A DNA stretch of 33,241 bases from Candidatus Eiseniibacteriota bacterium (GCA_903844735.1 CAIMUX010000140.1:1-33241); one strand, 5' to 3'. Shown: positions 2,804 through 31,180, counted from the stretch's first letter. Made by a program: numbers and translations. The notes: generated by a model not told the origin, from the letters alone.

Positions 2804-2832
2804 TGGACATGAGCCCCCGCGGGGTGTATGCT
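2804..2832 (+). promoter_or_regulatory. Sigma70-type promoter of vapBC with embedded palindromic operator candidate
   Basis: TGGACA (2804-2809, five of six to the -35 consensus) is separated by 17 bases from TATGCT (2827-2832, four of six to the -10 consensus). A perfect 10-bp palindrome CCCCGCGGGG (2815-2824) lies in the spacer. A short inverted repeat ATGC-N5-GCAT (2828-2840) overlaps the -10. VapBC complexes normally repress their own promoter through inverted repeats at this position. The predicted transcript start near 2839 fits the vapB start chosen at 2874 and rules out the ATG at 2796. Confidence 0.5.
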
Positions 2833-2873
2833 TTATGCATGATCAGAGGTCAGGATATGCAGAGGAGAATGGA

Positions 2874-10118: not shown

Positions 10119-10961
10119 TCATCTCAGACGCAGCACCTTGGCACAGAGGGCGTTGCCCGTGCCCCTGACCTTTGCCATGTAGAGCCCGGCCGGGACCGCC
10201 GTGCCGTTGCTGTCACGGCCGTCCCAGATCCAGCGCATCCCCTGTGGAACAGCCCGGTCGACGGCGATCTCCCGCACCAGGCGGCCGCCAAGATCCCAGA
10301 CGTCCAAGACAGGCCCGCGGCCTCCCATCGTGCCGGAGAACGAACTCCCGGGAGACCGATCGAAACCAAAAGACAGGTCCCCAAGCACCTCCACCGTCAC
10401 GTACCCACGAAGCATCGGACTTGGATAACAACGCAGCGCAGAGAGCCGGCCCGGATCGAATCCATCGATCTCGGATGGCATTACAGTCAGACGCAGATCG
10501 ACTCTGACCTTGCCGGACAGCAGGTCGTCTGCGGACAGGATATGCATGGGCTCGGGGTCCACCGAGACATCTGCGTGCGGCGCCTCGAATACCAGCGTGT
10601 CCCCCGTCTGCACGGCCTGATTGGACCCGCCATCAAAAAGGACCGTGTCGTACGTCCCTAGATCCGGGTCTCCGATGACGCCGACACTCGAAAGTCCGTT
10701 GCGCTGATTCGTCACTCTTACGGTGTCGGAGGTGTCCCAAGGCGTGATCCCGTCCCCATGAAACACGGAGCCATACACGACAAGAAGAGCAGTCGTCGAG
10801 TCGCTCCTGACAAGACCGCCCGACGACGCATCCCCGGTTGCGGCAGGGGACGCCTGGACGGTCGCAACGACTCCGAGGAAGAGCGCTGTGAGACAAGACG
10901 CGAACCGCCTGATCTGCGGGGAACGCCTGTCTCCCGCCTGCCTATGCCTGTGAAACATCAT
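10119..10961 (-). CDS. Secreted protein with FlgD-like C-terminal module
   Basis: A 280-residue exported protein. A basic n-region (HRHRQAGDRRSPQIRR) is followed by a hydrophobic core (CLTALFLGVVATVQA) and a likely cleavage near VQASPA. The middle (~45-150) is a small beta-rich domain (LVVYGSVFHGDGI, then TVRVTNQRNG, then FDGGSNQAVQTGDTLVFEA). A comparable segment occurs before the C-terminus of the giant protein next door. The last ~75 residues are a FlgD/T9SS-type Ig module (VWDLGGRLVREI, WIWDGRDSNGTAVPAGLYMA, final RLR). The start chosen is the ATG at 10961 with GGAG nine bases upstream; the ATG at 10976 is possible. It begins 23 bases after the giant's stop, so it is probably co-transcribed. 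Confidence 0.75.
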   Translation of the reverse strand: MMFHRHRQAGDRRSPQIRRFASCLTALFLGVVATVQASPAATGDASSGGLVRSDSTTALLVVYGSVFHGDGITPWDTSDTVRVTNQRNGLSSVGVIGDPDLGTYDTVLFDGGSNQAVQTGDTLVFEAPHADVSVDPEPMHILSADDLLSGKVRVDLRLTVMPSEIDGFDPGRLSALRCYPSPMLRGYVTVEVLGDLSFGFDRSPGSSFSGTMGGRGPVLDVWDLGGRLVREIAVDRAVPQGMRWIWDGRDSNGTAVPAGLYMAKVRGTGNALCAKVLRLR

Positions 10962-10984
10962 TGAGCATTTCTCCATTCTTGGAC

Positions 10985-16900: not shown

Positions 16901-19900
16901 CTCGTCCGGAGATGTCGTACCCAGCCCGAGGTTGGTCACCGTCCAGCGCAGAACCACCGGGCGTCCGGACGCGGCCAGGGCGGCCGGGGCCAGAGCCGTC
17001 ACCTGCAGATCCGGCGGGGTCAGGTAGACCCGTAGGGGGCCTAGGACCCGCGTGTTGTTTCCCTCGTACTCTCCCTCATCGACGCGATTCTCGAGGTCGG
17101 AGGCCAGGATCAGGTAGTAGCTGCCCCACAGGCTGCTGGGAACCGTCACGGACACTTCCCTGGTGTACGACGAGTCCGCGACGAGGAACAACTGCTCCGG
17201 ATACAAACCGAGCCGGGTGTCCTGGAAGCGATCGAGCAGCGAGTCGCTGGAGATGTAGATCGCATCCTTCCACTCCGAAATGCCCAGAATGCCCGGCCCT
17301 TCGTTCAGGATGGTGTACGTGATAGGAACCTGGGAACCCGTGCCGATGCTGTCCAAGGGCATCGAAAGAGCCGTCGGATGCAGATCCGGCGGAGGTGACG
17401 GCGTGACCTCAATGGAGTCGGAAGCCGCCAGCGCGTGAACGTTGTCCACGATGTGAATATTCGGAACAGCGAAGAGATGGAGCATCCCCGACATGTCCTC
17501 GGGAAGCCGTACGGTTCCGCTCAGCGTGTCGGACTCACCACGGGCCAGACGGGTCGCGTGGAAATACCCCGTGGCCAGCAGCGTATCCTGCGCATCGTAC
17601 GCGGCGTCCCGCGACAGAACGAGGCCGTCGTCCCAGTGATCGCTCGTGAACGTGGCATCGCCCTCGTTCGTGACCACCCAACGGACCGTGATCTCCTGCC
17701 CCGACCAGGCCGCCGCCGGCGGCTGCACGCTCGGCACGCGCAGGAAGGCCGCCAGATGGAGCGCCCGCGTCGCCGTGCTGCTCGATCGCTGATTGTCGGA
17801 CTCCTGACCGCCCTCGTTCTCCTGCAGGTTTACGTCCGTCTGCACGATCAGGTAGAAGTCGCCCGCGATGTCGTCGGGCATCGTCACTTCGCGCGTGGTG
17901 CTATAGGACTGGCCCGCGGGCAGGTAGGCGGGGTTCGGGAATGTTCCCAGGATGGTCGTCGCTCCGGGGACGATATAGGGCAGCGGAGAAAGGTAGACGC
18001 GGTCCGACCAGAGGGGCACGTCGGTGGCGACCGGTCCGGTATTGCGCACGACCCAATGGACCTGCATCGTCTCGCCGGCCTGCACCTGCGCCGGGCCTTC
18101 GACGGTGTCGACCACCAGGTTGGGATACTGCTGGGCATTGATGTACAAAGGGTCGATGCTGACCGAGGTGTTGTTGGTCTCTTCTGCATACTCGCGGATG
18201 CTGTTCTCGCGGTCGGTTTGGACGATGATCCACTGATTTCCCGGACGATTTGCTGGAATCGTCACCTGGTGCGTGTGTTCATACATGCCGCCGGGTGGCA
18301 GACCATAGGGATACTGGAACGTGGCCAGTTGCGTGTCATCCCCTCCCAAAGACGCATCGGAGGAGATCAGAATCCTCTCCCTCCACGTCCCGGTGGCCGT
18401 CGCGGTCCCCAGGTTACGGACGCGAAACGTGATCAGGCAGGGCTGTCCCGCCCAGGATTCACCCGGATGCGTGATGAGGGAGACCTGCAGGTCGGGATGG
18501 GGCGGCGTGGTCATGGGGATCCCTCGCCCCAGACGACTGTTGTTCGTTTCAGCGTTCTCCTCGCTCACCTGGCCTCTCGCGTCCGTCGTCACGACGATCC
18601 AGTACTTGCCATCGGGAACGCGCCAGGGCACCGTGACCTGCGACGTCTGCGTGTAGGACTCTCCTGCGTACAGGGTGTCCGGGCGAAGGAACTCGGCGAT
18701 CTGCACATCATCGCCCGCCAGCGAGTCGGTCGAGACATACACGCGGTCGTACCAGATGGCGGAGGCCGGGCCCTGCCCTGCGTTTGTGACCGTATAGCTC
18801 AAGCTGAACGGAACGTCGAAACGTCCCGAGTCGGGCACGGCGACCGCGGTCACCGCAAGGTCGATCAACCCGACACGGAAGGTGCGGCCGGCCGCGGACG
18901 GGTCCTCGTGCAGCGCCTGGTCGCGGGACTTCACCTCGAAGGTGTGCCAGCCCGTGGCGAGGCCGGTGAGCTGGGCCGAGAGAGTCGAACCGAAGGCGCT
19001 CCAGGAGCCGCCATCCAGACGCCAGGAGAACAGGAGCGCACCCGGCAGGCTGACGTTGTCCGAGCCGCGGTAGTTCAAGGTCACGGAGGAGGCCGACACC
19101 CAACTGCTGTCGGCAGGACCGGCCGTGATTTCGGTCTCGGGAGGCGTGAGGTCCACGGTGAAGGTCCGCGCGATCGTCCCCACGTGGTCATGCCCATCCC
19201 GGGCCCGGGCGGTCAGGGTGTGCGCTCCCTCGCTCAGTCCCCGCAGCACACGAGACGTGTCCGGCGCCCAGGCCGTGGCCGCCATGTCCAGGACCGAAGA
19301 AAAGACCAGTGCCGACCGGGGCGTGATGATGTCCACGGCGGTCCAGGCGAAGAGCACGGAGTCCGCGGCGAGGTACGAACCGGCGGACGGTGCGGCGGTG
19401 AAGCTCACCATGGGAGCGCGCGCGTGAACGAAGAACGACATGGAATCCGGCGTCGCATCGACATTGCCGGCCGGGTCTTTCGCCCTGACCCGGACTCGAT
19501 GGAATCCCTCGGCCAGATCGGTGAGTGTATCCGTGACGGCAGCACCGTAGGCCGCGTATATGCCCCCGTCGAGCCTGGAGGCATACGCCAACGTGTTGAT
19601 CGGGGCCTGCGAGTCCGTGCCGGTCCAGGTCAACGGAACCGAGGCGACCGTCACCCAGGAACTGTCCGCCGGAGCTTGCGTGATGTCGGTATCGGGCGAC
19701 GTGATGTCCACGGTGAACTCGACTCCCAGAACAGGGTCCTGGATGTTGCCCGCGAGGTCCTTCGTCTTGAGCTCCAGCAGGTGTGCACCAACGGCCAGAC
19801 CCGTCCAGGAACGGCCGGTGGAGTCGCAGAAAGCGCTCCACGCGGCACCGTCCATCCGGTAGGAGTAACCGATCTGCCCGGTGGGGGTGAGATTGTCCAG

Positions 19901-21250
19901 GCCGAGCCAGCCGAAGGTGACCGTGCTCTGCGACCACCCGCCGTCCTGCGGTCCCTGCGTGATCGACACGGTGGGCGCCGTGCGATCGAGGGTGAAGGTA
20001 CGCGTCGCCGGCGTCGGATCCTCTTGCCCATCGGTGTCCATGGACTTGACGGAGAACAGATGCGCCCCCTGGGCCAAGCCGGCAAAGGCATGCGTCGTGT
20101 CCGAAGTGAAGGCGCTCCAGGAACCGATGTCGAGCTTCCAAGCGTAGACAAGCTCCCCCACGGGCGTGAAGGTGTCAGAGCCGATCCACGAGAAGCTCAC
20201 GTCGCTGAGCGAGAGGTGAGCACCCTCCGTCGGACCCGTGGCAATCGAGGTCTCCGGCGCCGTCAGCGGCGCATTGAAGCGCCAGAGCGCGAGGGTGTTG
20301 GCATCGACCTCATGCTGGGCGTTCCCGCTCGGAAAGACGGTCCGCGCGACATTGCTGATACGGAAGTCGTCCAGTTTCCCGATCCACGGAGCGGTCCGAT
20401 CCAGCCGATCCGCGAAGCCCAGATTCTGCTCCGTGGCGTAGTTGATGGTCTTCCCCGTCCACGCGGTTTCCGCTTTCTTCACCCCATTGACGTAGAGCTT
20501 GACCGCCGAGGCGTCCACCGTGAAGGCGATATGTGTACACGTGCCGGAGGGCATCACGTCCGGGTCGGTAACCGTGACCGAGTTCCCGCTCGAGTTGTAG
20601 TAGACCTGGACGAAGAGCTTGCTCGTGGCCTTGTCGATCGCCAGGATCCAGCTCTTGCCATAGTTGTGCGAAGGAGAGTACTTCTCTATGATCGTGCTGA
20701 CCGTGCCGGACGGACCGTAGGTGCCGCTCCAGTTCACGTATCCTTCGACGGTCAGCGTCTGAACCCACAACTCCGGCGCGTCGATCACGGTGCCGTAGTG
20801 ATTGCGCCCGTCGACATCCAGCCCACCCAAGGCGCAGGCGGTCGCGAAGGGCGGGGCTCCCGAAAACCCGGCGTCGTGGTAGTGGGCCGCGGCATCGGCA
20901 ATGATCAGGCCTGAAAGATTCATCACCGAGAACTCACGGCCGTTCGAGTCGGTGAAGTCAACATCGCCCAAGATGTTGTTGAAGACCGAGAACTCCCGGC
21001 CGTTGGAATCGGTGAAATCAACGTCTCCCAGGATGTTGTTGAAGACCGAGAACTCCCGGCCGTTGGAATCGGTGAACTCGACATCCCCTAAGACGTTATT
21101 GAACACCGACACCTCGCGGGAAATGGCGTCGGTGAACTCCTGCGCGTACAGGAGACCGGGGCAGAGCAGCCAGAGGCCGGCGAGGAGCAGTCGTTTGCGT
21201 ATCGCCGACCGGAAGGAACGTGATTGGGAAGAGGACCGGCTGCTGATCAT
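10985..21250 (-). CDS. Giant secreted CARDB-repeat surface protein (3421 aa)
   Basis: A 3421-residue exported protein. The start is ATG 21250, with GGGAG six bases upstream; it gives a basic n-region and a core LLLAGLWLLCPGLLYA. Order: four 20-residue repeats (FTDSNGREFSVFNNILGDV, ~39-113); a LamG/concanavalin-like domain (DNA ~20880-20290); five Ig-like domains opening with T-S-P/A-P-x-T-x-I-x-x-x-P (~20270-18890); twelve CARDB domains of ~124 residues beginning PPDLxVT (~18870-14410); a middle region; a DPNEKLGPNG segment near 13085; CARDB 13 (~12555); two LNxVxLP modules (~12190-11680); and a FlgD-like C-terminus (WSGTGDNGRLLPGGVYFLRF, final VVVR). CARDB domains are adhesion modules, so a role as a surface adhesin or matrix scaffold is inferred. 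It follows seven glycine-rich paralogs by 62 bases. The uninterrupted frame argues that it is functional. Confidence 0.85.
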   Translation of the reverse strand: MISSRSSSQSRSFRSAIRKRLLLAGLWLLCPGLLYAQEFTDAISREVSVFNNVLGDVEFTDSNGREFSVFNNILGDVDFTDSNGREFSVFNNILGDVDFTDSNGREFSVMNLSGLIIADAAAHYHDAGFSGAPPFATACALGGLDVDGRNHYGTVIDAPELWVQTLTVEGYVNWSGTYGPSGTVSTIIEKYSPSHNYGKSWILAIDKATSKLFVQVYYNSSGNSVTVTDPDVMPSGTCTHIAFTVDASAVKLYVNGVKKAETAWTGKTINYATEQNLGFADRLDRTAPWIGKLDDFRISNVARTVFPSGNAQHEVDANTLALWRFNAPLTAPETSIATGPTEGAHLSLSDVSFSWIGSDTFTPVGELVYAWKLDIGSWSAFTSDTTHAFAGLAQGAHLFSVKSMDTDGQEDPTPATRTFTLDRTAPTVSITQGPQDGGWSQSTVTFGWLGLDNLTPTGQIGYSYRMDGAAWSAFCDSTGRSWTGLAVGAHLLELKTKDLAGNIQDPVLGVEFTVDITSPDTDITQAPADSSWVTVASVPLTWTGTDSQAPINTLAYASRLDGGIYAAYGAAVTDTLTDLAEGFHRVRVRAKDPAGNVDATPDSMSFFVHARAPMVSFTAAPSAGSYLAADSVLFAWTAVDIITPRSALVFSSVLDMAATAWAPDTSRVLRGLSEGAHTLTARARDGHDHVGTIARTFTVDLTPPETEITAGPADSSWVSASSVTLNYRGSDNVSLPGALLFSWRLDGGSWSAFGSTLSAQLTGLATGWHTFEVKSRDQALHEDPSAAGRTFRVGLIDLAVTAVAVPDSGRFDVPFSLSYTVTNAGQGPASAIWYDRVYVSTDSLAGDDVQIAEFLRPDTLYAGESYTQTSQVTVPWRVPDGKYWIVVTTDARGQVSEENAETNNSRLGRGIPMTTPPHPDLQVSLITHPGESWAGQPCLITFRVRNLGTATATGTWRERILISSDASLGGDDTQLATFQYPYGLPPGGMYEHTHQVTIPANRPGNQWIIVQTDRENSIREYAEETNNTSVSIDPLYINAQQYPNLVVDTVEGPAQVQAGETMQVHWVVRNTGPVATDVPLWSDRVYLSPLPYIVPGATTILGTFPNPAYLPAGQSYSTTREVTMPDDIAGDFYLIVQTDVNLQENEGGQESDNQRSSSTATRALHLAAFLRVPSVQPPAAAWSGQEITVRWVVTNEGDATFTSDHWDDGLVLSRDAAYDAQDTLLATGYFHATRLARGESDTLSGTVRLPEDMSGMLHLFAVPNIHIVDNVHALAASDSIEVTPSPPPDLHPTALSMPLDSIGTGSQVPITYTILNEGPGILGISEWKDAIYISSDSLLDRFQDTRLGLYPEQLFLVADSSYTREVSVTVPSSLWGSYYLILASDLENRVDEGEYEGNNTRVLGPLRVYLTPPDLQVTALAPAALAASGRPVVLRWTVTNLGLGTTSPDEWSDGLYLSDDAVLNLPGDLSLGERKHHGALDPSGSYGDSLVWTVPDTLSGPHYLIARTDIRGELGEYNAEDNNTRDTTMAIQLSPPPDLRVTDVEPRTALSSGQAALIRWSVRNVGSGGSYDTFWRDGIYISADSVFSQDDTLVTNRDHHGALASGSAYTDSVTVTLPVNRSGPGWLIVKTDVSDQVYEVPFETNNTRSRAVDIALTPPPDLVVATFGLTGEAWSGLSLPFAWTVLNAGTGATPNSAWQDAIYVSADSTLNLSQDALVATFDRSGSLGAGAQYNAAGTYTLPQGASGTIYLFAVTDRNGIVYEHVAEGNNVRRLTVNVQLTPPPDLQVVSLTSPGEITATASTQIQWSVANRGSGSTVTAGWQDRLYLSDDAALSPLSDRLLVMQERSMPLNADEGYLQTRSIVFPLETIGTKYLICQTDALDAIYEHTNESNNLRVQQVTILAPPPTPPDLAVTSLTAGVPYKSDDKAYADVQWTVRNVGEYSPSPSQSYWSDGIFLSADSLYDANDTFLGAFSHTGGLADSAEYSQSAQIHFPNGSSGARVLLCVTDYLDRVTEVSPDNNLRAVGVVISLNPVDLQVDSVATPLGAVSGQFLSVHWSVGNHGVGVTESPSWYDAVYLSRDTMVDETDALLGSKRHDGVLPAVGSYTDSLQVQIPLGYSGSYFVLVRTDKNNEVYEHEQESNNVGRTYERITVSLPAPADLVVPTVIVPLSGTGGEPIEITWSVANIGANPAPDRWYDAVYISADSTWDLSDLLLGEVEHTGGLAPGKVYRGNYAGVLQTDLPGIAPGQYHAIVRTDIRNNVNESQEDNNAGFSAEVMAADVTELPPGLVWTESLAMAESRFFHLLAGPQADLRVHLDASGAYDDLELYIGYGYVPDRIHYASRHEANPDTTVIIPGGNGQCYAMLYGRYVPGPTTYTLSTEELPFGVASVMPVAAGNAGFATLSLSGGQLDTAVRVRLVGSGGSTLDAWRLNHMNSARLEAQFDLQGVTPGLYDLELITAFPDTARLPGAFSVTAGGGAFLLLTVDGAGSLRPDTESDYVITVRNDGDADAYDVLTPFTLGAGTHYQLVNGDSTLAPRVATVDRILLSVSEVRIGQTAQFAVRVWSDRDITMDIAAIEGAALKVEPAKRSRVVRDSEKGNGRSEATVMGAYLVDVCTAFGDALASQGYTGSQAGLVSAFAGYLRLEMADRSAVFSEVAIRAALVESVPLVYDPEPPPAGVEGAVQAALEQLRAYVESVMNSAAKAPRVYVRVVRATDPNEKLGPNGRDDAFISTLQSVPFAIYFENVAGASAPARQVRLVDNLSADWDWQKMRLTEFVFGDVVIPVPPGYSYYHTTYSLPSGLLLEIDAGVDVTDGRVHWYFTTIDPATGQPTDDPLEGFLPPNDETGRGQGHVGFNIQADPGLSAGAEILNSSVIVFDENNPITTNAVRCVIRDAYADLAPTALRVQTTAIPPIEGDPISLTVTIQNLGEVRADSVAIDFYVGHPDSGGVALAPTGWVPVLAAGAHCDVSVDWTPLRLLGLQKVYAVIDRSNRVREEDEGNNVWLTTLELAPRMFALDLATDLNLVGLPFDPGDAYDAGTFAADIGASVVIQADSTGSFRSFVPADPLSPTFPVETGKGYLAVVPQGQTVLLRGVTGVGRMSVRRGLNMVSLPIENDSLLTAGAFARSLNGSAVIRYDTSQGRFRTFLPDFHTGPGFAIFGGLGYIVLAERDTTVVFDGEAWRAGLAAPMAVELADTADSTALVVSGAAASGSSVEGTAVLGITGVLQQVVPRGVAGLQTDVPLEISNVRNGIKAAAVAVAGSGHFDAALLDFSGDLAVVVGDRLRIEVAGASGSTSGDPFEYQITAEDVARRYARIDGALPAQLPQRTLMELVLPNPMRGEAGFRYQLAAATKVDLQVFSVDGRRLANLVDRHQKPGYYSLQWSGTGDNGRLLPGGVYFLRFQAGDYRNHQKIVVVR
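20915..21136 (-). repeat. 60-bp in-frame tandem repeats at the mature N-terminus of the giant protein
   Basis: Four units of 60 bases (last one partial) encode FTDSNGREFSVFNNILGDV-type repeats directly after the signal peptide. The two central units are almost identical at DNA level, and the outer ones are diverged. This pattern suggests recent slippage or unequal exchange in an exposed N-terminal stalk. Confidence 0.85.
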
Positions 21251-21312
21251 GTGCGGCTCCCTGTGTTGCGACGGCTCTGGACGCCGATGGGCCTGTTGAG
21301 AAATCACGGACA

Positions 21313-22611
21313 TCACAACCCCGTTGCTCGGGCCTGGACCACGACGAAGTCGTTGAGCGGGACTCCGGTCAATGTGGCCTGCCAGATGGACGACGTCTCG
21401 TCACCGCTCACCAGGGCGGCGTCCATTGTCGAGGAAGTACCATTGCGCTGGGTCACGCGGAGTTTCACCAGCCAGGTGGTCGGAACATTGTTCGCCTGCA
21501 TCATCACCGGCTGCAGGTCGGTGGTCACCATGACGACATCCCCAGGCGGGTTGAACCGATTCCCCGGATCGACCGGGACTGACTCGGTACCCACGGTCAC
21601 AACCCGGATGCGGGGGGCGTTGTCCGGGAGCCAGAGGACAGCCGTGTCGTTGTCCAGAGGCTTGAGCGAGGTATAGTCGGGGGCGCTGCTTCCGGTGAGT
21701 GTGATCGTATTGGCCTCGATGCGGATCCGGCCGACGCTTCCCGTGGTTCCTCCGCCCGTAGCATCGAGTCCAGCAGCGGCGCCCGCCACATGGTTGGCGA
21801 TAACCCGGATACCCCCGCCAGATCCTATACCCGTTACCAGACTGTTCCAGCCAGAGCCATCTCCGCCCTTGGCCCGGACCGTGCCGTTGACGGTGACGGT
21901 ACCGGCGCAGGCCAGCAAGATCGCACCCCCGCCGCCACCACCAGAGTACCGATTGCCGCCGCCTCCCCCGGATCCTCCGATCAGCGGCAGAATCCGTGCA
22001 TTGCCGTACATGATTCCGCCCAGCGTGCCCGTTCCACTGAAGCCATAGCCGGCATCTCCCGCCTGCTTGCCGCTGTGACCTCCACCGCCAGGACCAAGGC
22101 CCGCGCACCCGCTGTCGATGTCGTTCCTGTACCCTCTGCCGCCGGCAAAGCCGCCCGGGCCCGCGATCGCGAGCGAGCCTGATACGTCGTATGCGCTGCC
22201 GGAAAGATCGACCGCCCCCGCGATCGTGATGTCACCCGGCTGCACAAGCCACACCACCGGCGCCCCCGACCGGTGATTGGAGAACTTCACGGTCTTACCC
22301 GCCGCAATGTTCACCGACGCGTACTTGAACACGACCGCCCACTTCTCCGGATCGTATACGCCGTTTCCGTTCCCAGGCTGATTCCACGATCCGATCGTCG
22401 CAAGATCGAGATCGATGGTGGTGGTGGCTGCCGTCGGCGCGAATGCCCCGTCCGACCCGTCGGAATAGACGTTCGGGGCCGCAACAACCAGGGACGCACA
22501 TCGGAGAAGCGCCAGAATGGAGAGTCCCAGCAAGCCGTAGGAGGACGCCCGGCCGTCGATTGTTTGGCGCGGTCGTCCGGCGGCGGGTTGCATCCTGCTT
22601 GGAGCCATCAT
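21313..22611 (-). CDS. Tandem glycine-rich secreted paralog A1
   Basis: A 432-residue secreted protein, last of the seven paralogs before the giant gene. Signal peptide ~1-44 (core YGLLGLSILALLRCASLVVA). A conserved head follows (VYSDGSDGAF, GSWNQPGNGNGVYDPEKW at ~74-91, SGAPVVWLV), then a glycine-rich core (~135-300; GPGGFAGGRGY, GLGPGGGGHSG, ILPLIGGSGGGGG, GGGGGGAILLACAGTV, SGGGIRVIAN, GRIRIEANTI). The C-terminal Ig-like domain (~330-432) starts after LWLPDNAPRIRVVTVG and ends VVVQARATGL. The repetitive G-rich core suggests a beta-helix or adhesin-like fold; no enzymatic motif is visible. No FlgD-like sorting domain. Start ATG 22611, or ATG 22608, after AGGAG. Frame extension to 22779 runs through the duplicated spacer and is rejected. 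Confidence 0.75.
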   Translation of the reverse strand: MMAPSRMQPAAGRPRQTIDGRASSYGLLGLSILALLRCASLVVAAPNVYSDGSDGAFAPTAATTTIDLDLATIGSWNQPGNGNGVYDPEKWAVVFKYASVNIAAGKTVKFSNHRSGAPVVWLVQPGDITIAGAVDLSGSAYDVSGSLAIAGPGGFAGGRGYRNDIDSGCAGLGPGGGGHSGKQAGDAGYGFSGTGTLGGIMYGNARILPLIGGSGGGGGNRYSGGGGGGAILLACAGTVTVNGTVRAKGGDGSGWNSLVTGIGSGGGIRVIANHVAGAAAGLDATGGGTTGSVGRIRIEANTITLTGSSAPDYTSLKPLDNDTAVLWLPDNAPRIRVVTVGTESVPVDPGNRFNPPGDVVMVTTDLQPVMMQANNVPTTWLVKLRVTQRNGTSSTMDAALVSGDETSSIWQATLTGVPLNDFVVVQARATGL

Positions 22612-22744
22612 CGATCTCCTCTCGAACAGGTTCTGTTCTTGCCTGATGTGCGATCGCCGGTTCGGCCCCGACCGCCCTGCGATGCCGCCATCGCCACGCG
22701 CCGATGCCTCAAAGGATACCCAGCGACTTGTGCAACCGAAGACA
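22612..22744. repeat. Duplicated 133-bp spacer, copy 1
   Basis: The gap between A1 and A2 is closely similar to the gap between A3 and A4 (25476-25608), with the same length and long identical stretches such as GACCGCCCTGCGATGCCGCC. It carries the ribosome binding site of A1 and no recognisable gene. The gaps after the other array genes do not match it. Confidence 0.75.
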
Positions 22745-24073
22745 TCACAACCCCGTCGCTCGGGCTTGGACGATGACAAAGTCGTTGATCGGAACTCCGG
22801 TCAAGGTGGCCTGCCAGGTCGAGGACAGTTCGTCACCGCTCACTAGGGCGGCGTCGATTGTCGAGGAAGCACCATTGCGCTGGGTCACGCGGAGCTTCAC
22901 CAGCCAGGTGGTCGGAACATTGTTCGCCTCCATCATCACCGGCTGCGGGTCGGTGGTCACCATGACGACATCCCCGGGTGGGTTGAACCGATTCCCCGGA
23001 TCGACCGGGACTGACTCGGTACCCACGGTCACGACCCGGATGCGGGGGGCATTGTCCGGGAGCCACAGGACAGCCGTGTCATTGTCCAGAGGCTTGAGCC
23101 AGGTGTAGTCCGGGGAGCTGCTTCCGGTCAGCGTGATGGCGTTGGCTTCAATGCGAATGCGGCCGACGCTTCCCGACGCATTCCCGGTGCCCCCCAGCAC
23201 GGAGAGCGCGCTGGCCGCGCCGGTCACCTCATTGGCGATGATGCGGATGCCACCACCGGATCCGGCCGGCGAATACCAGGCGTAGACGGAAGTGTATCCA
23301 TTCCCGCCGTTTGCGTTGACGGTTCCGCTGAGGGAGGCGGTACCCGCGCACGCGAGGAGGATCGCCCCGCCGCCGCCACCACCGCCACCGCCAAACGATT
23401 GGCTGCTGCTACCTCCACCGCCCGAGCCTCCGATGAGCGGCACAATTCGCGGGTTTCCGTAGGCGCCCCCCGGAAGCGTGCCAGCGCCAGGAAAGGCATA
23501 ACCGCCGGACCCCGACGCCGTCGCGGTATGGCCGCCTCCACCCGGGCCGAGGCCGGCAGATCCGGTGTTGTTCGAAATGAGGTACCCCCGGCCTCCGGCG
23601 AACCCGCCCGGGCCTCCGTTCGTGAAGGACCCGGCTCTTCCGTTGTTGGCGTTGACCCCGGCCAGGTCCACCGTTCCCGCAATCGTGATGTTGCTTTGCG
23701 CGAGCCACACGACTGGGGCACCCGAGGGGTGGTTGATGAACTGCACGGTCTTGCCCGAAGCGATACTCACCGAGGAGTACTTGAACACCACCGCCCACTT
23801 CTCCGGATCATACACACCGTTCCCACTCACGGCCCCCGGCTGGTCCCAGGTCCCCGTCGTGGCCAGCCCCAGGTCAATGGTCGTCGTCGCTGCCGTTGGA
23901 GCGAATGCCCCATCCGACCCGTCCGAGTGGACATTCGGCGCCGCGAAAGCCAGGGAGACCCCTCCCACGAGTGCCAGGATGGCGACTCCGAGCAAGCCGC
24001 AAAACACCGTCGGTGATGTAGTGGTCCGGCACGACCTGCCATCGGCGCGTAGAATGTTCCCCAACACCTTCAT
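22745..24073 (-). CDS. Tandem glycine-rich secreted paralog A2
   Basis: A 442-residue member of the array. ATG 24073 is preceded by GGAGGAG. The signal peptide core CGLLGVAILALVGGVSLAFA differs more from A1, A3 and A4 than those do from each other. It lacks the QPGD step of the relatives (WLAQSNITIAG) and has an insertion in the head (WDQPGAVSGNGVYDPEKW). The glycine core is the richest of the set, with nine consecutive glycines around GGSSSQSFGGGG. The last ~110 residues are nearly identical to A1 at DNA level (VGTESVPVDPGNRFNPPGD in both), implying gene conversion of the 3' end. It probably belongs to the same exported structure as its neighbours; no catalytic motif. Confidence 0.75.
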   Translation of the reverse strand: MKVLGNILRADGRSCRTTTSPTVFCGLLGVAILALVGGVSLAFAAPNVHSDGSDGAFAPTAATTTIDLGLATTGTWDQPGAVSGNGVYDPEKWAVVFKYSSVSIASGKTVQFINHPSGAPVVWLAQSNITIAGTVDLAGVNANNGRAGSFTNGGPGGFAGGRGYLISNNTGSAGLGPGGGGHTATASGSGGYAFPGAGTLPGGAYGNPRIVPLIGGSGGGGSSSQSFGGGGGGGGGAILLACAGTASLSGTVNANGGNGYTSVYAWYSPAGSGGGIRIIANEVTGAASALSVLGGTGNASGSVGRIRIEANAITLTGSSSPDYTWLKPLDNDTAVLWLPDNAPRIRVVTVGTESVPVDPGNRFNPPGDVVMVTTDPQPVMMEANNVPTTWLVKLRVTQRNGASSTIDAALVSGDELSSTWQATLTGVPINDFVIVQARATGL

Positions 24074-24158
24074 CGGTCTCCTCCCTGGACTGTTCTGACT
24101 CTACCCGGCATTCGATGGCGAGCCATGCTCCGACCGGTGTGCGCTGCGACCCTGGACA

Positions 24159-25475
24159 TCACAGCTCCGAAGCTCGGACTTGGACGACGACAAAGTCGTT
24201 GAGCGGAATTCCGGTCAGAGTGGCCTGCCACGTTGAAGACTGTTCGTCGCCGTTCACCAGGGTGGCGTTGATTGTCGAGGAGACACCATTGCGCTGCGTT
24301 ACGCGGAGTGTCACTGGCCAAGCGAGTGGGACATTGCTTGCCTGTATGACTACCGGCTGCGGATCCGTGGTCACGAGGAGGAGATCTCCGGGCGGGTTAA
24401 ACTGGCCGAGTGCGTCAGCCGGGACCGGTTGCGTGCCCACTGTCACAACACGGATGCGCGGCGCGCTGTCCGGGGGCCAGAGGACAGCCGTGTCGTTGTC
24501 CAAGGGCTCAAGCCACGTGAAGTCCGGCCCGCTGCTGCCCGTCAGGGCGATCGTGTTGGCTTCAACGCGAATGCGTCCCACGCTTCCCGCGTACACCCCG
24601 CCATACCCGGCACCGCCCTGCGCAGAGAGTCCGCCCGCGGCGCCAGCCACTCGATTGGCGATGATCCGAATACCACCCCCGGATCCGCCGTGCCCGCCGT
24701 TCCAGTCGGTCCCGCTGCTTCCTCCGTCGCCATTGATCGTCCCACTGATGGAAACCGTGCCCGCGCACGCCAGGAGCATCGCTCCGCCGCCGCCACCCCC
24801 CGACGACTTGTACGTCGGGTGTCCGCTTCCTCCCGAACCGCCGATAAGCGGCAGGATCCGTGCGTTTCCGTATGCACGGCCGGGAAGTGTGCCCACCCCA
24901 GCGAGGGCATAGCCGGCGCTTCCATGCGCTGATGCGGTGTGTCCGCCGCCGCCGGGGCCCAAGCCTGCGCATCCAGTATTGGCCGCGCTGAGGTACCCTT
25001 TGCCGCCCGGAAATCCGCCTGCCCCGCCGTTGGCAAGGGCCCCGCCGAGTCCGCCGCTGCTGCCGGCGATGTCGATCGTCCCCGCAATCGTGATGTCACC
25101 CGGCTGCACAAGCCACACCACCGGCGCCCCCGACCGGTGATTGAGGAACTTCACGGTCTTCCCCGTAGTGATGTTCACCGAGGAGTACTTGAACACGACC
25201 GCCCACTTCGCCGGGTCGTATACGCCGTTGCCGTTCCCGGGCTGATTCCACGACCCGGTCGTGGCGAGATCAAGATCGATCGTCGTGGTAGCCGCCGTCG
25301 GCGCGAATGCCCCGTCCGACCCGTCGGAATAGACGTTCGGGGCCGCGAGGGCCAGTGAGGCACATCCGACGAGCGCCAGGATGGAGAGTCCCAGCAAGCC
25401 GTAGGAGAACCCCCGGCCGTCGGGTGTCCGGCGCGGTCCGCCGGCGGCGGGTTGCATGCTGCCTAGAGCCCTCAT
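24159..25475 (-). CDS. Tandem glycine-rich secreted paralog A3
   Basis: A 438-residue member of the array, starting at ATG 25475 after GGAGGAG. The signal segment YGLLGLSILALVGCASLALA contains LVGC, which resembles a lipobox, but the paralogs have G or R in place of C and all keep a signal peptidase I-like end (LALA before PNVYSDG). I treat it as secreted, not lipidated. The head is almost identical at DNA level to A4 (25082-25425 against 26540-26878). The glycine core and the Ig-like C-terminus (VPADALGQFNPPGDLL, ending VVVQVRASEL) are its most divergent parts. The spacer to A2 is 85 bases and unlike the 133-base spacer. Confidence 0.75.
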   Translation of the reverse strand: MRALGSMQPAAGGPRRTPDGRGFSYGLLGLSILALVGCASLALAAPNVYSDGSDGAFAPTAATTTIDLDLATTGSWNQPGNGNGVYDPAKWAVVFKYSSVNITTGKTVKFLNHRSGAPVVWLVQPGDITIAGTIDIAGSSGGLGGALANGGAGGFPGGKGYLSAANTGCAGLGPGGGGHTASAHGSAGYALAGVGTLPGRAYGNARILPLIGGSGGSGHPTYKSSGGGGGGAMLLACAGTVSISGTINGDGGSSGTDWNGGHGGSGGGIRIIANRVAGAAGGLSAQGGAGYGGVYAGSVGRIRVEANTIALTGSSGPDFTWLEPLDNDTAVLWPPDSAPRIRVVTVGTQPVPADALGQFNPPGDLLLVTTDPQPVVIQASNVPLAWPVTLRVTQRNGVSSTINATLVNGDEQSSTWQATLTGIPLNDFVVVQVRASEL

Positions 25476-25608
25476 CGATCTCCTCCCGACAGATTTCTGT
25501 TCTTGCCTGCCATCCGGTCGCCGGTTTGGCCCCGACCGCCCTGCGATGCCGCCTTCGCCACGCGCCGCTGGCTCAAAGGATACTCAGCGACTTGTGCAAC
25601 CGAGGACA
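25476..25608. repeat. Duplicated 133-bp spacer, copy 2
   Basis: The second copy of the spacer described at 22612-22744, here between A3 and A4. It ends at the A4 stop with the same TCACAACCCCGT stretch. Its presence next to A1/A2 and A3/A4 only points to duplication of a block that included a gene and its flank. Confidence 0.75.
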
Positions 25609-26883
25609 TCACAACCCCGTTGCTCGGGCTTGGACGACGACGAAGTCGTTGAGTGGGATTCCGGTCAACGTGGCCTGCCAGACGGACGACGTCTCGTCAC
25701 CGCTCACCAGGGCGGCGTCGATCGTCGAGGAAGCACCATTGCGCTGGGTCACGCGGAGTTTCACCAGCCAGGTGGTCGGAACATTGTTCGCCTCCATCAT
25801 CACCGGTTGCGGGTCGGTGGTCACGAGGAGAACGTCGCCGGGTGGGTTGAACTGGCCAAGCGCATCGGCCGGGACGGGCTGCGTGCCCACGGTCACGACG
25901 CGGATGCGGGGCGCAGTGTCCGGGGGCCAAAGGACTGCGGTATCGTTGTCGAGCGGCTCGATCCACGTGTAGTCCGGAACGCTGTTTCCGGTCAGGTTGA
26001 TCGTGTTTGCTTCGACGCGGACGCGCCCGGCACTTCCCTTCAGAGTCTCGCCCGCCCCGCCCGGAGCTAAGAGCCCGATGGGCGAGCCGATCACCCCGAT
26101 CACCCGGTTTGCGATGATGCGAATGCCACCACCGGACCCGCCGCCCGCATACCACGCTCCGCCGTAGGCGTATACGGCACCACCGGAGACGTCGACCGTT
26201 CCAGCAATGGAGACCGTACCGGCGCAGGCAAGCAAGATCGCTCCACCACCGCCACCGCCGGAATGGGCGGAAGCAGCGTTGCCACCCCCTCCAGAGCCCC
26301 CGATCAGCGGCAGAATGCGCGCATTCCCATATGCGATCCCGGGCGCCGTGCCCATCCCGGCGTAGGCATAACCGGCGGCGCCGATCCCCGTCGGACTGTG
26401 CCCCCCGCCGCCAGGACCGCGACCCGCGCAGCCTTTGTTGTTCGCATCGACATACCCTCTGCCGCCGGCAAACCCGCCCGGGCCGGGGGTTGTCAACCCT
26501 CCAACTCTGTCCCCGGTGCCCCCTTTCATGTCGACCGTTCCGGCGATCGTGATGTCACCCGGCTGCACAAGCCACACAACCGGCGCCCCCGACCGGTGAT
26601 TGAGGAACTTCACGGTCTTCCCCGCCGCGATGTTCACCGAGGAGTACTTGAACACGACCGCCCACTTCGCCGGGTCGTATACGCCGTTGCCGTTCCCTGG
26701 CTGATTCCACGACCCGGTCGTGGCGAGATCAAGATCGATCGTCGTGGTAGCCGCCGTCGGCGCGAATGCCCCGTCCGAGCCGTCGGAATAGACGTTCGGG
26801 ACCGCGAGGGCCAGTGAGGCACGTCCGACGAGCGCCAGGATGGAGAGTCCCAGCAAGCCGTAGGAAAACACCCGGCCGCTCAC
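25609..26883 (-). CDS. Tandem glycine-rich secreted paralog A4 (5' end replaced)
   Basis: A 424-residue secreted protein, the first A-subfamily gene in transcription order. Its GTG start (26883-26881) overlaps the B1 stop as GTGA, leaving only VSGRVFSYGLLG before the hydrophobic core. A1 and A3 have ~20 further residues and their own ribosome binding site. The match to A3 stops at about 26878, so its promoter-proximal end was lost by recombination and translation now depends on coupling to B1. The C-terminus is a mosaic: VPADALGQFNPPGD as in A3, QPVMMEANNVPTTWLV as in A2, and the ending DETSSVWQATLTG as in A1. The frame also extends to 26955, but that part overlaps B1. Confidence 0.72.
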   Translation of the reverse strand: MSGRVFSYGLLGLSILALVGRASLALAVPNVYSDGSDGAFAPTAATTTIDLDLATTGSWNQPGNGNGVYDPAKWAVVFKYSSVNIAAGKTVKFLNHRSGAPVVWLVQPGDITIAGTVDMKGGTGDRVGGLTTPGPGGFAGGRGYVDANNKGCAGRGPGGGGHSPTGIGAAGYAYAGMGTAPGIAYGNARILPLIGGSGGGGNAASAHSGGGGGGAILLACAGTVSIAGTVDVSGGAVYAYGGAWYAGGGSGGGIRIIANRVIGVIGSPIGLLAPGGAGETLKGSAGRVRVEANTINLTGNSVPDYTWIEPLDNDTAVLWPPDTAPRIRVVTVGTQPVPADALGQFNPPGDVLLVTTDPQPVMMEANNVPTTWLVKLRVTQRNGASSTIDAALVSGDETSSVWQATLTGIPLNDFVVVQARATGL

Positions 26884-28235
26884 AGCTTCACCGCCCTGGC
26901 CTGGACAACCACGAGGTTCGACGCCGGCAACGCTTGCGGCAACATCACGCGCCATGTGGACAGCGTCTCGTTTCCGCCGTCGAGCGTTGCATCGGCGCTA
27001 AACTCGTCACCCGACTTCAGAACGACGCGAACCGTGACCTTCCAGCCGGTCGTGGGGACATTGGCGGCCTCGCATAGCACCTCGACCTGGCCGGTCGTGT
27101 TCAGCGAGAGGTCTCCCGGTGGGCTCAGCCCGCTGCGCGGGTCTGCGGGGATGGCCTGGCCGGCGACCGTGGTGACGCGAACCGTGGGAGCATCCGAAGG
27201 AGGCCAGATGACGGCGGTGTTGTTGTCGAGGGGAATGAGGGACGTGTACTCCGGGTTGCTTGAGCCGGTAACGGAAATGCTGTTTGCTTCGATTCGGATG
27301 GCGCCGAAGCCGCCCGAGTTGCCCGTGCCGCCGCCCGCCGCTGAGATGCCGGCGACTGTTCCTGACACGCTCTCGGCCACGATACGGATGCCACCACCGG
27401 CACCGCCACCAGAGCCGGCGACATAGCCTTCGTACCAGAAGTTGGCACCACCGCGTGCAGTGATGCCGCCCGCAATGTATACAGTGAGACCAGCAGCCAA
27501 CAACAGTGCGCCGCCTCCGCCGCCACCACCACTCCAAAACGTAGGGTTGGTGCCGTCCCATGCCGACCCCCCACTACCACCCACCAGGGGGAGAACCCGC
27601 GCGTTGCCGTAGGAGATCCCAGGTTGCGGTCCCCCCCCAGCCGTCCGGTAGCTCCCGCCCGAGCCGTTGCCGCTGGTATACGAACCACCGCTGGGGGAGT
27701 ACCCTCCGCCCCCAGGCCCCAATCCGGCGCTACCACGGCTTTGCGTCGACAGATAGGAACGCCCTCCCCGGAAGCCCCCCGGGCCCCCAATCGCAAACGT
27801 GCCAGCCGTCTGCAATGCCTGCCCATCAAGTCTCACCGTCCCATCGATCCTCGCCCCCCGCCGCACCAGCCACACCACCGGCGCCCCCGAAGGGTGATTC
27901 GTGAATGTCACTGTCTTGCCCGTCATGACATACAGCGAGTCATACTTGAACACCACGGCCCACTTGTCGGGATCGTAGACGCCGCGGCCGTCGCCCGGCT
28001 GATTCCAGCTCCCGGTAACGGCTAGCGACAAATCGATGGGGGTGGTGCCGGTATAGCTCAGTGTCCCGTCCGTCCCGTCCGACCCGACATCGATCAAAGC
28101 CCAGGCCATTGATCCGGCCGCGGTCACCGACAGGAGTACCCCTACCGCCAACAGCGCAGCCGCAAGCACGAACCTCCGTGGCCGGCAGGCCTTGTGTGGT
28201 TCCGTCCGCTCTTGCACGCTCCGTAACGGGTTCAT
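26880..28235 (-). CDS. Tandem glycine-rich secreted paralog B1
   Basis: A 451-residue member of subfamily B. The start at ATG 28235 (MNPLRSVQERTEPH) has AAAGGTG eight bases upstream. The frame is open to 28484, but that extension is only a shadow of B2. The long signal peptide ends TAAGSMAWA before LIDVGSDGTDGT. Head motifs (GSWNQPGDGRGVYDPDKWAV, SGAPVVWLV), the glycine core (GPGGFRGGRSYLS, GLGPGGGGYSPSGGS, RVLPLVGGSGGSA) and an Ig-like end (PPGDLSLNTTGQVEV ... VVVQARAVKL) follow. B members have SLYV/SVYV where A members have SVNI, and EVLCEA[AT]NVP where A members have QPV[MV]xxA[NS]NVP. Confidence 0.75.
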   Translation of the reverse strand: MNPLRSVQERTEPHKACRPRRFVLAAALLAVGVLLSVTAAGSMAWALIDVGSDGTDGTLSYTGTTPIDLSLAVTGSWNQPGDGRGVYDPDKWAVVFKYDSLYVMTGKTVTFTNHPSGAPVVWLVRRGARIDGTVRLDGQALQTAGTFAIGGPGGFRGGRSYLSTQSRGSAGLGPGGGGYSPSGGSYTSGNGSGGSYRTAGGGPQPGISYGNARVLPLVGGSGGSAWDGTNPTFWSGGGGGGGALLLAAGLTVYIAGGITARGGANFWYEGYVAGSGGGAGGGIRIVAESVSGTVAGISAAGGGTGNSGGFGAIRIEANSISVTGSSNPEYTSLIPLDNNTAVIWPPSDAPTVRVTTVAGQAIPADPRSGLSPPGDLSLNTTGQVEVLCEAANVPTTGWKVTVRVVLKSGDEFSADATLDGGNETLSTWRVMLPQALPASNLVVVQARAVKL

Positions 28236-28285
28236 GGGCGACACCTTTCTTCGGCAACTTCGACGTGGTGGAGCATTCGAGGTGG

Positions 28286-29632
28286 CTACGGCAGCTTCAT
28301 CGCCCGAGCCTGCACCACCACGACATCCGACGCCGGCAACGATTGCGGCAACAGCGCCCGCCACGTAGAGAGCGCCAGGCTCCCGCCCTGGAGCGTCGCG
28401 TCGACGCTGAACTGGGCACCCGACTTCAGAACGACGCGAACCGTGACCTTCCATCCGGTGGTGGGGACGTTGGTGGCCTCGCACAGGACCTCGGCCTGGC
28501 CGGTGGTGCTGGTGGCCATGCCGCCCGGCGGGTTGAGCGTTCCACTCGCATCGGCCGGAACGGGAACGCCAGCCACGGTGGTCACGCGGACGGCAGGTGC
28601 GTCCGAGGGTGGCCAGATGACGGCGGTGTCATTGTCGAGGGGAGCGAGAGATGTGTATATCGGGTCGCTGGAGCCGGTGAGGTTGATGGAGTTGGCTTCC
28701 ATGCGGATCCGGCCGCCGCCGCCGTCGTTCCCAAACCCCGCGGCAAGGGCGCCGGAGGCCACCAAGCCCGAGGCGGTTCCCACGACGGTATTGGCCACAA
28801 GGCGGATCCCGCCTCCACTTCCGCCGCCGCCACTGTAGTACCAGGAGGGATTTACGAAGTATCGGTCGGAGGCTCCCCCTTTTGCCCAAAGAGCGCCGGA
28901 GAGGTAAATGCTCCGATTGCTGGCGATCAGGATCGCACCGCCGCCCGACCCACCGCCATACTGTGTCGTGCCTCCCCCGCTCCCGCCCGACCCACCGATC
29001 AGAGGTAGAATGCGGGGATTTCCATATGTGAGACACAACGCAGGAATTTCTCCAAGATACCCGTAGCCGCCCCCGGCGCCGGAGGTCGTCGCCAGGTAAT
29101 TCCCCCCCCCAGGCCCCATCCCCGCACTTCCGAGGCTGTTCACAGACAGATACCCCCGCCCCCCACGAAACCCACCGGGCCCACCCTCAGCATAGCCGCC
29201 GGCCAGCAGGCCCGTCTTTCCGCTCACATCGACTGTGCCCCTGATCCGCACGCCCCGCTGCACCAGCCACACCACCGGCGCTCCCGACGGGTGATTCGTA
29301 AATGTCACCGTCTTGAGCGTGTCCACATACAGCGAGTCGTACTTGAACACCACGGCCCACTTGTCCGGGTCGTAGACGCCATGGCCGTTGCCAGGCTGGT
29401 TCCAGCTTCCGGTGACGGCGAGCGATAGATCGATGATCCTGTTCGAGGTAACGCTCAAGGTCCCATCTGTCCCATCCGACCCGACATCGATCACGGCCCA
29501 TGCCATGGATCCGGCCGCTGTCACCGACAGGAGTACGGCCACCGCCAACAGCGTGACCGCCGGCACCGACCTCCGTTGCTGACGAGCCCCGTGTCCTTCC
29601 ACCCGCTCTTGCATGCTCTGTACCGGGTTCAT
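28286..29632 (-). CDS. Tandem glycine-rich secreted paralog B2
   Basis: A 448-residue member of subfamily B, closest to B1. Start ATG 29632 (MNPVQSMQERVEGH) with AAAGGTA upstream. The leader and first codons match B1 almost base for base. Signal peptide to SMAWA, then VIDVGSDGTDGT. The glycine core carries GPGGFRGGRGYLS, AGMGPGGGNY, RILPLIGGSGGSGGG and GGGSGGGIRLVANTVVG. It ends VVVQARAMKLP, one residue longer than the others. The spacer to B1 is 50 bases with no terminator. No cysteine-rich, catalytic or sorting motif is visible. Confidence 0.75.
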   Translation of the reverse strand: MNPVQSMQERVEGHGARQQRRSVPAVTLLAVAVLLSVTAAGSMAWAVIDVGSDGTDGTLSVTSNRIIDLSLAVTGSWNQPGNGHGVYDPDKWAVVFKYDSLYVDTLKTVTFTNHPSGAPVVWLVQRGVRIRGTVDVSGKTGLLAGGYAEGGPGGFRGGRGYLSVNSLGSAGMGPGGGNYLATTSGAGGGYGYLGEIPALCLTYGNPRILPLIGGSGGSGGGTTQYGGGSGGGAILIASNRSIYLSGALWAKGGASDRYFVNPSWYYSGGGGSGGGIRLVANTVVGTASGLVASGALAAGFGNDGGGGRIRMEANSINLTGSSDPIYTSLAPLDNDTAVIWPPSDAPAVRVTTVAGVPVPADASGTLNPPGGMATSTTGQAEVLCEATNVPTTGWKVTVRVVLKSGAQFSVDATLQGGSLALSTWRALLPQSLPASDVVVVQARAMKLP

Positions 29633-29722
29633 GGGCGATACCTTTCTTCGGCAACGTCGGTGTGGTTGGGCATGCGCCGGAAGGCCCGGGCCGTATCAAC
29701 TCGGCTCACGACTCCTCCTCCC

Positions 29723-30976
29723 CTACAGCTTCGACGCCCGAGCCTGAACCGCCACCATATCCGCCGCGGGCAGGACTTGGGGCAGCACGGCCGTCCAGGT
29801 CGAGACGGCCTGGTTTCCACCGGTGAACGTGGCATCCACGGAGAACTCCTGCCCGGATTTGCGCGCGACCCGGACGGTGACCTTCCAGCCGGAAACGGGG
29901 ATGTTGGTTCCCTCGCAGAGAACTTCCACCGGGGTGCTGGTGGACAGCGAGAGATCGCCCGGTGGACCGAAACTCGCACGGGGGTCGGTGGGAACCGGTT
30001 GGCCGGCGACGGAGGTTACACGAACGGCCGGTGCGTCGCTGGGAGGCCAGATGATCGCGATATTGCCGGGGATCCCGACCTGCGGGACGTAGATCGGGTC
30101 GGTGCCGCCGCTGTAGGTGATGGTATTGGCTTCGATACGGATGCGGCCCTTGCCGCCGCTGTATGCGTTGCTACACTGGAGTTGCCCAAGACCGGCGACC
30201 TGATCGGCAACCAGCCGGATCGCTCCGCCACTTCCACCGAAGTTGCCTAGGCCACCGTTCGAGTAGATCGCGCTGTTCTGAAACAGGTCGATGGCGCGCC
30301 CAGCGGCTACGAGAATCGCGCCGCCTCCAGCACCTCCGCCGCCCCAGCTTGCAATTTCAGGTCCCCCACCCCCGGAACCACCGATCAGCGGCAAAATGCG
30401 ATCGTTGCCATAGGTCGGTCCGGCGCCCGCGGCGGTGCCGACAGTCCCGTAGCTTCCCGGACCGCCATAAGATCCGGACCCGATTCTGTAGGCACCCCCA
30501 CCAGGACCCATGCCCGCACTTCCGGTACTGGGCCCCGGGGCAGTCGCCCGGCCGCCGCGAAATCCTCCCGGCCCGGGCTCGGCATAGGGCTTGACCGACC
30601 ACAGTGCGCAGCCTTCACCATTCAGATTCACCGACCCCTCGATCCTAACCCCCCTCTTCACCAGCCAAACCACAGGCGCACCCGAGGGATGATTCACGAA
30701 CGTCAAGGTCCTCCCGGCCGCCACATAGACCGAGTCGTACCTGAACACGACCGCCCACTTGTCAGGGTCGTAGACGCCGAGACTGTCACCCGGCTGGTTC
30801 CACGAACCGGTCACGGCCCGGGAGAGATCCTTGGATCGAGTGCCGGCCACGCGAAAGACACCGCTCGAACCGTCCGACCCCACGTCGACCAGGGCCAGCG
30901 CCTGCCCCGAGAACAGGACCAGCAGCGCCGCGGTGGTCAAAAGCAGGTACCCAAAGAAGCGAGTAGCAACGCGCAT
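29723..30976 (-). CDS. Tandem glycine-rich secreted paralog B3, first gene of the array
   Basis: A 417-residue subfamily B protein and the shortest B member. It is the first gene after the promoter at 31151-31180, with a ~168-base untranslated leader. Start ATG 30976 follows GGAGG four bases upstream; the frame extends to 31015 without a site. Signal peptide core FFGYLLLTTAALLVLFSGQALA. The head (WNQPGDSLGVYDPDKWAVVF) is conserved, but the PLDNDTAV[IL]W segment before the C-terminal domain is replaced by VPQVGIPGNIAIIWPPSD. It is thus the most divergent copy and possibly the founder. Ends VAVQARASKL. Confidence 0.75.
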   Translation of the reverse strand: MRVATRFFGYLLLTTAALLVLFSGQALALVDVGSDGSSGVFRVAGTRSKDLSRAVTGSWNQPGDSLGVYDPDKWAVVFRYDSVYVAAGRTLTFVNHPSGAPVVWLVKRGVRIEGSVNLNGEGCALWSVKPYAEPGPGGFRGGRATAPGPSTGSAGMGPGGGAYRIGSGSYGGPGSYGTVGTAAGAGPTYGNDRILPLIGGSGGGGPEIASWGGGGAGGGAILVAAGRAIDLFQNSAIYSNGGLGNFGGSGGAIRLVADQVAGLGQLQCSNAYSGGKGRIRIEANTITYSGGTDPIYVPQVGIPGNIAIIWPPSDAPAVRVTSVAGQPVPTDPRASFGPPGDLSLSTSTPVEVLCEGTNIPVSGWKVTVRVARKSGQEFSVDATFTGGNQAVSTWTAVLPQVLPAADMVAVQARASKL

Positions 30977-31150: not shown

Positions 31151-31180
31151 ACTATAGCGCAACGTGCGCCAGCGGGTCAA
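31151..31180 (-). promoter_or_regulatory. Sigma70-type promoter of the tandem array and giant gene
   Basis: On the minus strand TTGACC (31180-31175, five of six) and TATAGT (31156-31151, five of six) are separated by 18 bases. This is the best promoter-like sequence seen in the window. It faces the nine co-directional secreted-protein genes and gives a leader of about 168 bases before B3. No strong terminator was seen between here and 10119, so one very long transcript is possible. Confidence 0.6.

Follow-up and report, generated by a model that had tools for sequence, protein, structure and literature searches.

A seven-gene GRP array beside a giant secreted protein

The window, by which we mean the whole stretch of 33,241 bases analysed here, is a complete contig of a 5.4 Mb MAG. 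Seven minus-strand ORFs lie in a row at 21313-30976 and their products, of about 417-448 residues, are secreted glycine-rich paralogs, which we label GRPs. The gene of a giant secreted protein follows them in the same direction. The features are as follows (coordinates, strand, description and basis).

31151..31180, minus strand: promoter-like site TTGACC-18-TATAGT, the sole one ahead of the array (motif scan)
29723..30976, minus strand: GRP paralog 7, first gene of the array (alignment and full-length GRP profile match)
28286..29632, minus strand: GRP paralog 6 (alignment and GRP profile match)
26880..28235, minus strand: GRP paralog 5, start 28235 preferred over a longer ORF (alignment and GRP profile match)
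25609..26955, minus strand: GRP paralog 4, start 26922 or 26955 (alignment and GRP profile match)
24159..25475, minus strand: GRP paralog 3, with signal peptide, conserved head, glycine-rich core and C-terminal Ig-like domain (alignment, profile, AlphaFold)
22745..24073, minus strand: GRP paralog 2 (alignment and GRP profile match)
21313..22611, minus strand: GRP paralog 1, adjoining the giant, stop codon TGA at 21313 (alignment and GRP profile match)
10985..21253, minus strand: giant secreted SR-repeat partner of about 3422 residues, with 11 CARDB stretches, Laminin_G_3 and a type IX secretion-like tail
20900..21139, minus strand: four SR repeats of the giant, period 20 (TDAISREVSVFNNVLGDVEF...), straight after the signal peptide (repeat profile, E 2.1e-22)
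20339..20806, minus strand: Laminin_G_3 domain of the giant (Pfam)
10994..11239, minus strand: FlgD_ig / T9SS type A-like sorting tail at the C-terminus of the giant (Pfam, NCBIfam)

Promoter-like sites at the array were not above chance (2 found, 1.2 expected). When aligned end to end with one of the seven, the window GRPs showed 45-75% identity, and many columns of the alignment were invariant, including GVYDPxKWAVVF, GAPVVWL and GGSGG. The likely GRP starts are 30976, 29632, 28235, 26922 or 26955, 25475, 24073 and 22611, the longer listed ORFs of genes 5 and 1 being over-extended at their start. The likely start of the giant (MISSRSSS...) lies about 60 bases past the stop of gene 1, and an in-frame ATG upstream of it overlaps the GRP stop. 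With 24.6 bits against TIGR04183 (cut-off 23), the giant tail qualifies as a C-terminal type A sorting domain, and its Pfam FlgD_ig score of 23.1 is under the cut-off of 27 for that family. Thus, the seven paralogs and the CARDB/LamG giant described in an earlier note on this DNA are real and lie where it had placed them, according to the ORFs, the end-to-end alignment and the domain search. The same note had recognised no named family for the whole architecture of the small proteins, and our searches agreed: four GRPs tested against Pfam and NCBIfam matched no family at E up to 1, the GRP profile matched no PDB sequence at E up to 1, and PHROGs gave no significant match.

Two findings go beyond the earlier note: the repeats at the N-terminus of the giant (20900-21139), and additional GRP copies that this genome has on contigs C133, C136 and C30, with fragments on C133 and C53. 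In the GRP tree, the window array split into two sub-clusters: genes 1-4 grouped with the C133 copy, and genes 5-7 made up the other. This pattern looks like a lineage-specific amplification. Contig C133 opens (L046:1-136) with a (AATCTGCGT)n run directly ahead of its GRP, which suggests that the assembly breaks at GRP loci and that more copies may be missing.

Pairing of GRPs with a short repeat across phyla

The genes adjoining GRPs carry a repeat of about 20 residues, here called the SR repeat, with the consensus D-A-I-S-R-E-V-S-V-F-N and the core pattern [DE]-A-x-[SGT]-R-E-[VF]-[ST]-V-[FY]. Among 61 aligned units the arginine was invariant and the glutamate nearly invariant, and no Pfam domain lies over the repeat. 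Partners hold 3-13 SR repeats and loci hold 1-7 GRPs. Two variant arrangements were observed: one G640 partner on C4 (L205/L172) has a tandem run of 12 or more 20-residue units, which are of two types, VVSREVSFNTRVGSGGQDAG and LDALARAFTVENAPAAPPAQ, and the partners at L032, L034, L040, L041 and L095 have repeats paired 20 residues apart, the pairs being set about 118 residues from one another with an fn3-like domain in between. We define a cassette as a full-length GRP with the GVYDPxKWAVVFKY head and a same-strand gene with at least three SR repeats, and the window contains both parts.

A scan of 84,980 species genomes for GRP relatives returned 16 loci, in Verrucomicrobiota, Armatimonadota, a Nitrospira and a Phycisphaerae MAG, and in their neighbourhoods the adjacent gene nearly always carried tandem copies of the SR motif. 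Elsewhere in the window genome, a repeat protein follows each of the GRPs on C136, C30 and C133; on C136 and C30 it is only about 270-300 residues long. Small pairs occur in Armatimonadota, where L039 combines a GRP of 417 residues with a partner of 153 and the L091 cassette is of about the same size (partner about 150).

Whole genomes were then searched with two separate profiles, one for the GRP (alignment A2) and one for three tandem SR repeats (alignment A3); two genomes served as centres of the genome draws used for co-occurrence. A full-length GRP was present in 19 of 636 genomes from three phyla, and the repeat profile matched 17 of these 19 and none of the other 617. Among 338 Verrucomicrobiota genomes, G064, G072, G192, G301 and G311 had the GRP and the same five had the repeats; among 251 Armatimonadota genomes, the GRP was present in 12 and the repeats in 11, all within those 12; and among 47 genomes of the window's phylum, two had the GRP and one of these matched the repeat profile. 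The co-occurrence p values were about 3e-11 for Verrucomicrobiota and about 2e-18 for Armatimonadota (simple hypergeometric, which ignores shared ancestry). All ten of G301, G311, G411, G507, G555, G564, G572, G615, G640 and G652, none of which was used in the repeat profile, were matched by it. The two GRP genomes that the repeat profile missed have divergent repeats beside the GRP, namely SRPFEVR in G046 and VGSRLVTVY (SRLVTV, four times) in G627. The GRP and the SR repeat predict each other almost perfectly across phyla, which is a strong guilt-by-association signal.

The two parts are also adjacent. Of 42 repeat blocks, 41 sit 21-668 bp from a same-strand GRP (36 downstream, 5 upstream), and the 42nd stands at the start of a contig in G071, a genome in which a contig end truncates the GRP. 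A same-strand repeat neighbour was present at 41 of 41 GRP loci in Verrucomicrobiota, Armatimonadota, Nitrospirota, Planctomycetota and the window's phylum; the repeats at G411 C63, G068 C155 and G627 were recognised by the relaxed motif SR[LMIVR] and those at G068 C418 by degenerate copies. As a control for this relaxation, 21 of 354 ORFs of large loci had at least three spaced motifs, and all 21 were GRP neighbours. Among the loci that we read, we noticed no ORF in which a GRP is fused to repeats. At L037:9923-11155, a GRP with an in-frame TGA adjoins an intact repeat partner, possibly a decaying cassette.

A two-gene cassette of a GRP and an SR-repeat gene in at least five bacterial phyla is thus well supported. 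The suggestion of the earlier note that the small proteins and their neighbour form a conserved unit holds at all 41 loci, and the scattering of paralogs away from a partner that would have spoken against it did not occur. Its emphasis on copy amplification did not carry over to other loci, most of which hold one GRP. Tandem amplification was considered as the key feature and rejected, being confined to four loci (the window, G065, G072 and G640).

These data bear directly on another reading of the window, namely that a generic beta-helix adhesin was duplicated locally, in the ordinary way, next to a giant with which it has nothing to do. In its favour, secreted repetitive proteins commonly occur as tandem duplicates and this genome is rich in proteins with T9SS-like tails, but the co-occurrence and adjacency statistics and the 354-ORF control contradict it, so we regard it as barely credible.

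Interchangeable partners and a constrained head

Partners range from 130 to 3800 residues, and their non-repeat part may be CARDB, LamG, Ig, fn3, dockerin or a type IX secretion tail. Apart from the window giant, CARDB partners were found in G065, G572, G192 and G061; others carry Ig_3/I-set, fn3, cadherin, Laminin_G_3, dockerin type I or a bare T9SS tail. Dockerin_1 scored above its cut-off in the L030, L163, L164 and L210 partners and is lacking in the window giant, and a T9SS tail closes the small partners of C136 and G046. The repeats of downstream partners come after the signal peptide, and those of L033, L035 and L038, the upstream partners whose whole sequence was read, lie towards or at the C-terminus, so that in both cases they face the GRP gene. 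Since the remainder of the partner varies and the repeats stay, the conserved cassette is the GRP plus the repeats. The earlier note had cast the giant as organiser of the system, which the comparison does not support: the conserved partner is a short-repeat protein, often of 130-400 residues, whose other domains can be swapped.

On the GRP side, ten divergent relatives from Verrucomicrobiota share the glycine-rich core and the C-terminus and lack most of a head element of about 25 residues (GRP model positions 55-81 or so, ending GVYDPxKWAVVFKY), aligning to the model almost only from position 82 on. No repeat gene was found nearby in the examined neighbourhoods of these ten head-less relatives, which form a separate, fully supported branch where they were sampled in the tree. 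Approximate dN/dS values for the close paralogs of the window, at high dS, were about 0.11 for the head, 0.24 for the core, 0.22 for the C-terminus and 0.59 for the signal peptide. The core holds most of the substitutions and indels, the indels being located in its loops. Because the head is the most constrained part and the repeat partner is absent where the head is absent, we presume from these comparisons that the head is a candidate contact site for the SR repeats, and the core loops are a candidate seat of whatever varies among the paralogs.

Two explanations of the pairing that do without contact were weighed on this evidence. The first takes the GRP and its partner as co-expressed, co-displayed adhesins of one lifestyle that never touch. 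Both proteins are secreted and have adhesion-type folds, and adjacency alone is compatible with co-regulation; however, a short repeat and a short head are kept in at least five phyla while all other partner domains change, and co-regulation needs neither, which leaves this explanation rather unlikely. The second, which we consider very improbable, is that the cassette is a rare, horizontally moving pair held together by co-transfer and not by function. Its sporadic presence (19/636 genomes) and a GRP tree in which the phyla are partly intermingled (7 changes, minimum 4) fit such a pair, whereas the tree is mostly phylum-structured, purifying selection is evident (dN/dS 0.1-0.24), several divergent cassettes with both parts occur per genome, and plasmid and phage collections gave no GRP match.

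Predicted structure, possible docking and likeness to known systems

The AlphaFold model of a GRP (paralog 3, 27 homologs) had a pLDDT of 84.7 and a pTM of 0.81. It places the signal-peptide helix at residues 22-40 of gene 3 and an Ig-like beta-sandwich at residues 336-438 (Z up to 8.7, VIA-align), and residues 52-335 weakly resemble right-handed beta-helices (GH110B, Z 7.3, VIA-align). For residues 10-280 of a second GRP model, VIA-align returned the HxuA secretion domain 4i84 over 130 residues (Z 8.0, rmsd 2.9), a Z of 8 being at the level of common arrangements. The VIA-align rows of both models mostly concern the C-terminal Ig-like domain, so that the core fold was little probed, and Foldseek gave no PDB match for either model at E up to 0.001. 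Segment 137-231, which is confidently modelled and strand-poor, may be polyglycine II. We also modelled a read-through frame joining the GRP and partner of L039 (TAA read as Q), in which each repeat forms one strand of 9-12 residues (422-430, 438-449, 457-468 and 480-488; pLDDT about 62-77); this model speaks neither for nor against docking.

We propose, with a probability of roughly one half, that GRPs dock on the SR repeats and thereby decorate the partner, which would act as an anchor or adhesin on the cell surface. The array with its giant would then represent a single copy of an extracellular cassette that has two components. The GRP would consist of a signal peptide, the invariant head, a right-handed beta-helix-like glycine-rich core with variable loops and the C-terminal Ig-like domain, and would dock, probably via the head, on the SR repeats of the adjacent partner, each repeat being one predicted amphipathic beta-strand (xDAISREVSVFNx). 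The interchangeable domains of the partner would carry the complex to the surface or keep it there: in this genome the type IX secretion tail would export and anchor the partner, and in other genomes dockerin, CARDB, LamG, Ig, fn3 or cadherin domains would take its place. With its GRP gene amplified seven-fold, the window could encode a giant whose four docking repeats display mixed GRPs differing in their core loops. Physical docking, strand-like binding, surface display and loop diversity as ligand diversity are what we infer from the pairing, the head and the predicted folds. As regards the idea of the earlier note that the small proteins polymerise into or decorate a layer organised by the giant, it is partly borne out: decoration of a surface protein fits, although a single GRP is present in most cassettes and the partner is often small, and nothing shows polymerisation.

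The main points against docking are a weak mirror-tree signal (rho 0.20, with 79 of 2000 within-phylum permutations as high) and the repeat number (3-13), which is not matched to the GRP number (1-7). A different role for the repeats was also considered, in which they self-assemble, forming a beta-sheet or amyloid-like fibre, and the GRP does not decorate it but nucleates it, caps it or acts as its secretion chaperone. In favour of a fibre, the repeats are short, strand-like, periodic at 16-23 residues and rich in S, R, V, F and N, and some partners contain little beyond signal peptide, repeats and anchor. Nevertheless, neither curli-type amyloid repeat models nor other Pfam repeats matched the window giant or the partners scanned, the varying array size (3-13) and the pairs set about 118 residues apart with an fn3-like domain in several Verrucomicrobiota suit docking sites better, and a chaperone acting catalytically would not be expected in several copies for one repeat protein; we therefore think a fibre rather improbable.

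The proposed docking has a parallel in the cohesin-dockerin system, in which a secreted module likewise meets short modular docking sites on a larger anchor, and several partners, though not the window giant, end in dockerin type I. However, the SR repeat is a single strand-like motif of about 20 residues and not a calcium-binding dockerin, and no cohesin domain was found in the GRPs (Pfam, E up to 1), so the pair resembles cohesin-dockerin in working principle without membership. Proteins of two-partner secretion (TPS, with the HxuA/FHA N-terminal domain) have a right-handed beta-helix, which the GRP core, with its short 'GTVxVxGTI' strands and glycine-rich turns, weakly resembles. Four GRPs gave no Pfam or NCBIfam match to haemagglutinin/TPS families at E up to 1, and among the window neighbours scanned (FG-GAP, ABC transporter, DUF1854, VapB and AlbA_2 families) there was no TpsB/FhaC-type transporter gene. 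Glycine-rich viral and phage proteins in BFVD, Orpheovirus collagen-like A0A2I2L380 (Foldseek E 1.3e-5) and A0A5Q2W7D5 (8.2e-7), are predicted to have a fold similar to the GRP core and aligned over about 325 columns, but with a TM-score of only about 0.3, no sequence-family match and no known SR-repeat partner.

The giant, like the small partners on C136 and in G046, shares its tail with type IX secretion cargo, a system confined to Bacteroidetes according to reviews (PMC5445135, PMC7463736). The T9SS marker SprA (TIGR04189) is present in this genome, where a single frame of 2338 residues reaches a summed score of 467 bits, and the tail together with SprA suggests that the partner and perhaps the GRPs would reach the cell surface. 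No T9SS sorting tail was detected on the GRPs (Pfam and NCBIfam, E up to 1), so their own outer-membrane route in this genome is unexplained unless they are carried by the partner. About 100 FlgD_ig/T9SS-like C-terminal tails occur in the genome, including those at window 2-2557 and 10122-11093 and at the C-terminus of the giant.

No relevant paper with the motif strings was found in open-access full texts, and a broader search returned nothing on such a pair; the GRP family, the SR repeat and their pairing appear undescribed. At somewhat less than even odds, we would see here an undescribed extracellular docking system, in which a beta-helix/Ig family recognises a strand-like repeat of about 20 residues in a cassette that occurs in five or more phyla and is combined with varied surface-anchoring proteins, i.e. 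a natural pair of peptide tag and receptor with variable display loops. If the GRP and the repeat bind, they would represent a new modular assembly of surface complexes in uncultured bacteria. Protein engineering would then gain a short peptide tag and its stable receptor, and annotation would gain a starting point for the many giant CARDB, Ig and dockerin proteins of unknown role.

The window has several other genes. Its start cuts a gene (2-2557, plus strand) whose secreted product is at least 852 residues long, contains 12 FG-GAP repeats and ends in a FlgD_ig tail. This gene is followed by a VapB-type antitoxin (2796-3065, plus strand) and by a DUF1854 protein (6326-7159, minus strand) adjoining an ABC exporter (7750-10047, minus strand). 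Upstream of the array lies a protein with AlbA_2/Schlafen and HATPase_c_4 domains (31745-33010, minus strand), and near the C133 GRP there is a HATPase_c_4 protein with a Fic-like C-terminal domain (L046:2444-3802, minus strand).
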